From positions 868,001 to 932,000 of the forward strand of contig AAXZ01000001.1 in assembly GCA_000169395.1 (NCBI GenBank): a stretch of DNA of 64,000 nt, written 5' to 3'. Both the position numbers and the translations under genes were made by a program. The notes beneath the pieces were generated by a model. That model was not told the origin of the DNA. It worked only from the letters and a program-made list of their open reading frames with translations, and ran no database searches. Shown in pieces: positions 29,405-30,800 of the stretch (its first letter is position 1; the number at the start of each line of letters is the position of its first letter). Source of the DNA: Rhodobacteraceae bacterium HTCC2150 (GTDB lineage: Bacteria; Pseudomonadota; Alphaproteobacteria; Rhodobacterales; Rhodobacteraceae).

Positions 29405-29617
29405 TTAGGTTGAAGATTCATCTTCAAGGTGCAACTTCATTTCCAACAGCACTTGTTGAATTTCTGTCGTTTCACGAAGCAACCTTTTCGCCTCATTGAT
29501 CGAGATGATCCCATCCGCAATCGACAAGTTATATTCGCCCATTAAAGACGCAAATCGTTGGCTAAGGGCCACAACGTTTGCATTTACACCACTGGTTCGC
29601 AGTTCTTTGTTGTCATT
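29405..29617 (-). pseudogene. Downstream part of the HTH gene, same frame after a TAA
   Basis: Directly after the TAA that ends the gene at 29618-29860, the same frame stays open for 70 codons to a second TAA. It reads NDNKELRTSGVNANVVALSQ, then a helical, heptad-like segment with LRETTEIQQVLLEMKLHLED. There is no in-frame ATG at the beginning (a GTG is available at GTGGCCCTTAGC), and the out-of-frame ATG at the junction soon meets a stop. The simplest reading is the C-terminal half of one ~151-codon gene cut by a nonsense codon; readthrough or an independent start is possible. Confidence 0.5.
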
Positions 29618-29860
29618 TTAACTTATTGTTATTCCACCTAAATCTGCAAGTGCAGACGTGACATGAGGAAAGCTAGAGGCTTGTTCTAGCGCTGCAACCG
29701 CATCCACAGGCATAAATCTATCAGCGTGTTCTGGGGCCGAAGAATAGTAACGACCCAAGGTTGCCTTAGACTTGCCAGTCAATGCACAGGCCGCTTCAAA
29801 ACCCACATCCTTGACCAATGCCTCGGTGTGTTTCTTTAGATATCCACCATTATTCCCCAT
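29618..29860 (-). CDS. Small helix-turn-helix-like protein, probably the N-terminal half of a split gene
   Basis: An 80-residue protein. Residues about 14-40 (VKDVGFEAACALTGKSKATL) look like a helix-turn-helix of a phage CII or Cro-like type, followed by a tyrosine-rich turn and a helix (MPVDAVAALEQAS). It is likely a DNA-binding regulator; no precise family is claimed. The stop TAA is followed in the same frame by 70 more open codons. A structured segment lies 122 bases upstream of its ATG and could be its leader. The start has AGAGAGTGG upstream, a weak ribosome site. Confidence 0.6.
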   Translation of the reverse strand: MGNNGGYLKKHTEALVKDVGFEAACALTGKSKATLGRYYSSAPEHADRFMPVDAVAALEQASSFPHVTSALADLGGITIS

Positions 29861-29899
29861 GGTCCACTCTCTGCTTTTCTTGTTTCTTTATTAAGAAGG

Positions 29900-29922
29900 G
29901 GGAAAACCGAAACGGCTTTCCC
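29900..29922. other. Hairpin between the candidate RNA and the HTH gene
   Basis: Inverted repeat GGGAAAACCG / CGGCTTTCCC, three-base loop; one A-C mismatch on the + strand is a G-U pair on the minus strand. On the + strand it is followed by ATTTTTG, on the minus strand by a C/T-rich stretch. It could end the upstream RNA or sit in the HTH leader. Confidence 0.4.
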
Positions 29923-29982
29923 ATTTTTGCTATGACAGAATCTGCGTAATTTTCAAGGTATTCCAGACATTGTTTGGAATGC

Positions 29983-30154
29983 GTGCGCGTGGTCGGAGCT
30001 GGTTCCGGTGCGTTTGCCCAGTGGATGATGCAAAGTCCCTAACTTTGCTGTTAACCGTCTTTGGGCCTAACATTGGGAACAGACAAGGATCGTCCCCAGG
30101 CTTCCGCCAGTCCTTGTTGATGTCTCATATGTCGTGATTTTCCGACCACCGCAC
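29983..30154 (-). ncRNA. Candidate structured RNA (orphan RNA or long leader)
   Basis: A GC-richer island between the HTH gene and tdk folds into nested helices: a closing stem of 14 pairs with one bulge (29983-29997 with 30141-30154), an arm 29999-30006/30075-30082 enclosing 30016-30020/30062-30066 and a perfect hairpin 30030-30036/30042-30048, and a second arm 30083-30089/30111-30117 capped by 30099-30101/30106-30108. On the minus strand the last loop is GGAA, a GNRA tetraloop, and a TATGAA box lies at 30162-30167, so the minus strand is preferred. No protein frame spans it. I do not recognise a known family; 6S RNA is the nearest possibility and SRP or tmRNA signatures are absent. Confidence 0.5.
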
Positions 30155-30218
30155 TGCAAGTTTCATAAGACGTAAATCTAAACTTGAACCCATCGCTCGT
30201 CACGGTTAGGCCATTTAG

Positions 30219-30800
30219 ATGGCCAAACTATATTTTCACTATTCGACGATGAATGCAGGCAAGTCGACAATTTTGCTGCAGGCATCTCACAACTACATCG
30301 AACGCGGAATGCAGACCTATCTGATTACCGCACAGCTGGATAATAGGGCAGGGGATGCGCGGATCGCCTCGCGCATTGGCATTGGTGCCAGTGCAGATAC
30401 TTTTTCAGATGAAACCGATCTGTTTGCCAAGATTCAAACGCGGCTGGAAACAGGGCCTTGCGCCTGTATTTTCATCGACGAAGCGCAATTTCTATCTGAT
30501 GAACAAGTCTGGCAATTGGCCCGAGTTGTTGACGATTTGAATGTGCCGGTGATGTGTTACGGGTTGCGCGTGGATTTTCGTGGTAAGTTGTTTCCTGGGT
30601 CCGCAACATTATTGGCGTTGGCAGACGTCATGCGCGAAGTAAGAACCATTTGTCATTGTGGAAAAAAGGCCACGATGGTTGTACGTCGCGATGAAGACGG
30701 CAAGGTGTTGGCTGATGGTGAACAGGTTCAGGTAGGTGGAAACGAAACCTATTTGTCATTGTGCCGTGTTCATTGGCGCCAAGCAGTAAACGCAGATTAA
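30219..30800 (+). CDS. tdk: Thymidine kinase
   Basis: Salvages thymidine to dTMP using ATP. The 193-residue type II enzyme has the P-loop STMNAGKS at 9-16, the Walker B IDEAQ at 86-90, the lasso-loop tyrosine region, and a zinc site formed by C145, C147, C182 and H185. The ATG lies just after ...GGCCATTTAG, and no good ribosome site is visible. Its stop TAA overlaps the stop of the convergent dehydrogenase gene. Confidence 0.95.
   Translation: MAKLYFHYSTMNAGKSTILLQASHNYIERGMQTYLITAQLDNRAGDARIASRIGIGASADTFSDETDLFAKIQTRLETGPCACIFIDEAQFLSDEQVWQLARVVDDLNVPVMCYGLRVDFRGKLFPGSATLLALADVMREVRTICHCGKKATMVVRRDEDGKVLADGEQVQVGGNETYLSLCRVHWRQAVNAD

Follow-up and report, generated by a model that had tools for sequence, protein, structure and literature searches.

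The region between tdk and a divergently oriented HTH regulator gene appears, from sequence comparison, to carry a fast-evolving RNA family of the Rhodobacteraceae with covarying helices, whose conservation would lie in the structure, not in the letters. In Rhodobacteraceae bacterium HTCC2150, segment 29983-30154 of the 64,000-nucleotide stretch of DNA that was analysed (the window, whose numbering is used throughout) is very probably a diverged member of this family. The RNA appears to run on the plus strand, in the tdk direction and away from the HTH gene. The preferred explanation, held with about equal belief and doubt, is a stand-alone plus-strand gene for a non-coding RNA of ~200 nt, extending from ~29955 to ~30155, after the closing stem P1; its product is a candidate trans-acting RNA.

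The sequence-only reading had described a highly structured segment with a closing stem of 14 pairs and one bulged base, internal arms and a hairpin of seven perfect pairs, in a stretch without a credible protein frame. All these elements are present in the predicted fold. The segment folds with a minimum free energy (MFE) of -69.3 kcal/mol on the plus strand (z -4.38) and -63.1 kcal/mol on the minus strand (z -3.78), and none of 200 shuffles folds as well on either strand. Two overlapping ORFs that were tested had no Pfam match, and a conserved protein was rejected. Extension to 29955-30170, which includes a 5' hairpin, gives an MFE of -84.3 on the plus strand (z -5.33; 0 of 200 shuffles as good) and -71.6 on the minus strand (z -3.11; 1 of 200), and the left end of the element probably lies ~25 nt further left than 29983. 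The features of the region are the following:

29618..29860, minus strand: CII-like HTH regulator gene, cut by an in-frame stop (homology of an intact relative)
29900..29922, no strand assigned: dyad GGGAAA-N11-TTTCCC, probable operator (conservation)
29947..29952, plus strand: possible -10 element TAATTT of the RNA promoter (read from the sequence)
29958..29982, plus strand: 5' hairpin H0 (GTATTCC/GGAATGC), in the MFE and centroid structures, with hairpins seen by eye near the same spot in several relatives; outside the segment as first delimited
29983..30154, plus strand: structured RNA core closed by P1 (fold; several relatives have closing stems of other sequence)
29983-29998 with 30140-30154, plus strand: closing stem P1, 14 Watson-Crick pairs plus one G-U, one bulged base (fold prediction)
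29999..30082, plus strand: middle arm, helix 29999-30010/30071-30082 with G-U pairs and inner helix GCCC/GGGC (fold)
30030..30048, plus strand: 7-pair hairpin GCAAAGT/ACTTTGC, loop CCCTA (fold; resembles hairpin P5 of relatives, loop CCCCA)
30083..30117, plus strand: hairpin A, outer stem ACAAGGA/TCCTTGT, 5' bulge TCGTCCCCA, inner stem GGC/GCC, loop TTCC (stem score and 15-letter pattern)
30183..30211, plus strand: probable tdk promoter CTTGAA, 17 nt, TTAGGC (by eye)
30219..30800, plus strand: tdk, thymidine kinase (PF00265, E 8.9e-50)

Hairpin A is an extra arm that does not form in the minus-strand MFE structure. The place of TAATTT fits a weakly conserved t.aa after TGTCAT in the consensus of the relatives; no good -35 hexamer was seen upstream of it, it was unreported by the promoter scan, and the scan of 29840-30240 reported neither a plus-strand terminator nor a plus-strand promoter. 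The segment is single copy in its own genome, where the 16 other matches all have E >1, and a repeated or mobile element was rejected for want of a second copy.

The scan of Rfam 15 (4227 families) that the sequence-only reading had called for matched no known family: there was no match at gathering thresholds in the 64-kb window, none at E<=5 in 29860-30300, and none at gathering score in the loci of 20 relatives. Two relatives have one weak match each, below cut-off, to snoRNA families. A tRNA and tmRNA search found none in the window. Blastn with the window copy (E<=0.001) had no match among 100 relatives of the family, and plasmid and phage collections were also without a match. Three weak DNA matches (E 0.003-0.009) in 393 other genomes, considered as a TctA fragment, were rejected as chance level. 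Two of the three, in L123 and L125 (loci are designated L and a number), fall in genes read by eye as tctA (FRQSMLMS-type motif); their likeness of 23-27 nt to the 3' half of hairpin A (30102-30128) is consistent with chance.

6S RNA had been left open at first. It is a bacterial RNA that stands alone, measures 150-200 nt and has a long closing stem. The segment is like it in size class and closing stem and unlike it in having several arms with C-rich loops and no match to RF00013, either at gathering score or at E<=5. A full-length 6S candidate lies elsewhere in the same genome (G000:C10:26771-26927, 157 nt, 30.2 bits, E 3.7e-4), which makes the 6S option unlikely. The score of this candidate is below the RF00013 cut-off of 46.4, so that the model possibly under-detects 6S RNA in this group. 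The 6S RNA of R. pomeroyi is 158 nt long, according to Table 1 of PMC4809877; this paper gives E-MTAB-4468 as the deposit of its R. pomeroyi reads and refers to its Table S1 for coordinates.

The family was defined from a conserved core seen in part of the aligned tdk/HTH regions. Anchoring on the core motif gave 22 sequences, 18 of them through a pattern and 4 placed by hand, and 19 of the 22 were aligned (A1); since the first alignment was picked by this motif, the sequence sets are selected ones. Alignment A1 has two-sided changes in 17 of 20 pairs, 80.5% of its cells pair (69.3% when shuffled) and its covariation is 0.312 (shuffled 0.140). Alignment A4, fitted to model R1 and composed of 45 matches (44 distinct rows), has two-sided changes in all 20 pairs and a covariation of 0.345 vs 0.141. 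Alignment A5, made of 43 selected sequences on the plus strand, has two-sided changes in 28 of 29 pairs, 80.6% paired cells vs 70.5% shuffled, and a covariation of 0.392 vs 0.231 shuffled; its best slid register reaches only 0.143. In each of the three alignments the covariation is higher than in any of 500 shuffles or in any slid register. The compensatory changes in relatives that the sequence-only reading had proposed to look for are thus found in the core helices, and its idea of a structured RNA outside Rfam gains from covariation above all 500 shuffles. By helix, the proportion of paired cells in A5 is 90.0% for P5, 85.9% for P2, 77.8% for P3, 70.2% for the two outer P2 pairs and 62.1% for P4, which is weakly supported.

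Model R1, trained without the window copy, had matches at E<0.01 in 23 of 100 sources, of which 19 were training sequences, and in 39 of 295 family genomes with a single match each. Model R2 matched 35 of the 292 genomes in a sample of the order, all 35 from the family of the window. These fractions (only 39/295 and 35/292 genomes with a recognisable core) count against the best explanation, as do the selected sequence sets, the weak helix P4, the scan of 29840-30240 without a plus-strand terminator or promoter, and the window copy, which has no recognised core and no ACGAGT. Among 30 R1-matched loci, some of which repeat training loci, 27 have both the HTH gene and tdk.

The RNAs of relatives are organized, 5' to 3' on the plus strand, as H0, ACGAGU, P5 (loop CCCCA), GGGUGGGG, P2 enclosing P4 and P3, and hairpin A, whose bulge AUCCCCA is on the 5' side of the inner stem. 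Several species also have a closing stem P1, and some a terminator. By eye, hairpin A is absent from some members (e.g. L025, L087, L150) and the P2 domain from others (e.g. L048). The unpaired segments comprise the C-rich CCCCA of the P5 loop and AUCCCCA of the hairpin A bulge, and ACGAGU. In 96 non-redundant regions, TCCCCA is found 54 times on the plus strand (12.1 expected) and 6 times on the other, and ACGAGT 32 times on the plus strand (2.9 expected) and once on the other. Of 100 relatives, 38 have [TA]GGGGATG (minus-strand letters) at a distance of 210-300 nt from the start of the HTH gene; there are 4 other sites on the same strand and 1 on the opposite strand. A pseudoknot between the P5 loop and GGGUGGGG was tried and rejected: the letters are conserved, but covariation is no better than in shuffles, and the pairing is retained as speculation.

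The minus strand, which the sequence-only reading had considered probable, was also used for the first alignments and for model R1, until the wobble count overturned it. An A-C on one strand is a G-U on the other, and the 44 distinct rows of A4 contain 80 cells with a G-U that exists on the plus strand alone, vs 15 with one that exists on the minus strand alone. R1 and A4 having been built for the minus strand, the bias of the model runs against this result. In hairpin A, parsed by Watson-Crick scoring only, the plus strand of 34 non-redundant regions has 37 G-U vs 16 A-C. The counts of 80:15 (core) and 37:16 (hairpin A) and fold stability thus point to the plus strand, the counts applying to relatives and fold stability alone to the window copy. 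Across 85 intergenic regions the fold z is better on the plus strand in 65 and on the minus strand in 20, with a mean of -2.71 vs -1.84 (-5.3 vs -2.9 in the window). A rough scan of 101 regions for terminators gave candidates pointing to tdk in 55 and to the HTH gene in 21, at places that vary and are in some cases not downstream of the RNA. A weak minus-strand terminator was rejected by the wobble count. An RNA on the plus strand would not be the leader of the minus-strand HTH gene (start at 29860), as had been suggested, nor would it have the TATGAA box (30162-30167) as promoter.

The window copy is placed in this family by its position and by 15 hairpin letters that it shares with two related RNAs. 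Like the family, it lies in the tdk/HTH intergenic region with its RNA in the tdk direction, and at 210-300 nt from the start of the HTH gene it has a hairpin A with CCCC in its bulge. It holds H0, P1, a middle arm containing G-U pairs, the 7-pair hairpin (loop CCCUA) and hairpin A; ACGAGU is absent. Among the 31 [TA]GGGGA sites of the window, that of hairpin A scores best for its stem, and 1.4% of 364 comparison sites in relatives score as high. Where 38 of 100 relatives carry [TA]GGGGATG (minus-strand letters), the window has TGGGGACG. The 15-letter pattern TCCCCAGGCNNNNGCCAGT at 30093-30111 is found once in 64 kb and in none of 100 window shuffles, a figure that overstates its weight since the pattern was picked after seeing these sequences. 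Among 161 loci it occurs only in copies of the window locus, in L018/L093/L126 and in L023/L133, in the latter two groups inside hairpin A of two related RNAs. A 14-letter pattern matches 95 of 394 genomes, mostly background (a reversed control pattern also matches), and only once in the genome of the window. The P5-P2-P3-P4 core is recognised in the window copy neither by R1 (2.8 bits) nor by R2 (4.8 bits), neither score being significant; many other relatives are likewise without a match. The middle domain is therefore diverged or replaced relative to the family core, and arm 29999..30082 is not recognisable as the P2-P3-P4 domain of relatives. The partial R2 match to the 7-pair hairpin (30031-30047, E 0.14) is not significant.

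The HTH regulator family is found in 30 of 101 genomes, that of the window included; at least 80 further named loci bring the set to 110 loci (L012-L121), some genomes being represented twice. Its members include an intact relative in L043 with a match to phrog_101, the CII-like activators, at E 1.9e-13, and weak matches below cut-off to YmfL and Phage_CP76. Among the matches listed, the open frame has 149-184 aa in 108 of 109 relatives, the exception being L105, where a stop precedes the likely start as placed by script. The frame of the window gene is interrupted by a TAA at codon 81, and the rest of it (29405-29572, minus strand) is still conserved; recent loss, readthrough or a split gene are possible. 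The gene adjoins tdk divergently in 101 of the 110 loci, among the matches listed, with 136-555 nt between them. An HTH gene without an adjoining tdk match was observed in L066, L067, L082, L108, L109, L116 and L120, of which 6 of 7 are named Roseovarius; no RNA of this kind was seen by eye in L066, L067, L109 and L116.

The dyad lies between the RNA and the HTH gene, upstream of the latter. In the intergenic regions of loci among the matches listed, it has a spacing of exactly 11 with <=2 mismatches in 95 of 101, and 48 are perfect, window included. This fixed spacing suggests a DNA site bound by a dimer, for which the adjacent CII-like protein would be the obvious candidate binder. In L148 and L150, which both lack an HTH match, no dyad was detected beside the RNA. 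A conserved ATGACA box precedes it on the minus strand, where in the window the dyad also scores as a terminator-like hairpin. At the other side of the RNA, the probable tdk promoter CTTGAA-N17-TTAGGC is 3' of the RNA and ends 7 nt before the tdk ATG; it was not reported by the consensus promoter scan. Its CTTGnn box (CAAG in minus-strand letters) is kept just upstream of the tdk ATG in 72 aligned regions. With the box just before the ATG, the tdk transcript is possibly leaderless.

The RNA is found without an HTH match in ~1.5 kb on each side in L148 and L150, and without a tdk match in L147 (~1.5 kb on each side) and L042 (R2 30.4 bits, E 0.0013); by eye such an RNA is also seen in L082, L108 and L120, likewise without a tdk match. 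Its presence without one or the other neighbor makes it probably a stand-alone RNA gene. The gene would lie between that of a divergent, domesticated CII-like regulator and a probable separate tdk promoter, and would be transcribed from a promoter adjoining the GGGAAA-N11-TTTCCC dyad. The CII-like protein probably controls the RNA and may control both its own gene and the RNA. The RNA would then act in trans, its C-rich segments pairing with G-rich, Shine-Dalgarno-like sites of mRNAs, which is the weakest step. Its function is perhaps that of a small RNA with C-rich loops under the control of its CII-like neighbor, mRNA pairing ranking first among the conceivable modes of action and protein titration second.

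Titration as the main function has a small share of our confidence. The plus-strand RNA would bind protein through ACGAGU/GAGUGA repeated unpaired between hairpins, in the manner of CsrB. CsrB and RsmZ are protein-titrating RNAs with several hairpins and a GGA motif repeated in loops. The likeness is a repeated short motif, which in the relatives is ACGAGU in linkers, absent from the window copy. The excess of ACGAGT favors this function, as does the presence of two or more GAGT per region on the plus strand of 43 of the 96 regions, compared with the minus strand of 5; against it, GAGT is absent from 24 of 96 regions and from 29955-30170 of the window, and a protein candidate is lacking.

A 5' leader or riboswitch within the tdk mRNA is somewhat less credible again, and the RNA is probably not of this kind. 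It shares the direction of tdk, which adjoins the HTH gene in most loci and the RNA in both HTH-less loci. The conserved CTTGnn box, promoter-like although unflagged by the scan, stands between RNA and tdk, as do terminator-like hairpins in some species (e.g. L103, L046, L078), and both argue against a common transcript, as does the RNA in loci without tdk. It is rather improbable that the CII-like, phage-derived activator and the large structured RNA form a conserved two-gene module of the Rhodobacteraceae whose RNA is a new class, switchable or ligand-binding rather than a simple antisense, in that its C-rich loop and bulge would fold back on G-rich stretches of the same molecule, the P5 loop on GGGUGGGG and the bulge of hairpin A on the loop of P4.

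We give little credence to a real family with a window copy that is decayed or unrelated and folds by chance. The failure of R1 and R2 on the window and the in-frame stop of the HTH neighbor would agree with it; the z of -5.33, the perfect dyad and the 15 fixed letters of hairpin A, shared at the same place with two relatives and absent from 100 shuffles (the pattern having been picked afterwards), oppose it. The initial proposal of a minus-strand RNA or HTH-gene leader is very improbable, its fair fold (z -3.78), the 20 regions with a better minus fold and the HTH gene in that direction being outweighed by the G-U/A-C asymmetry, the more stable fold of the plus strand, both for the window copy and for 65 of the 85 regions, and the RNAs that lack an HTH match.

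The proposed stand-alone RNA gene can be set beside known RNAs. The alphaproteobacterial anti-Shine-Dalgarno "cuckoo" RNAs and CcsR have ~80-100 nt and CUCC-type loops, C-rich and unpaired, in hairpins. Compared by their general description, they share C-rich loops with the present RNA, which differs in its ~200 nt, closing stem and CCCCA bulge. In the part of the source available, the structured motifs HRC-8-4 and uORFC-8-2 are reported only from Rhodobacterales, HRC-8-4 resembling the stem of an intrinsic terminator, and are located mainly in the ccoNOQP-ccoGHIS interval and 5' of cysS (PMC8632094). The restriction to Rhodobacterales is the same and the genomic places, as given there, are different. 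The SAM/SAH riboswitch RF01727, likewise a structured RNA found only in Rhodobacterales according to the available part of its description, is located upstream of metK (PMC2864571); this position differs, and an Rfam match is absent here. An RNA beside tdk in this group is undescribed in the open-licence papers searched, and an earlier unnamed sighting may exist in supplements.

The RNA family would be one that is missed by nucleotide search and yet recoverable by position and structure. A regulator family of unknown role would gain an RNA partner as well as an operator-like dyad that is conserved.
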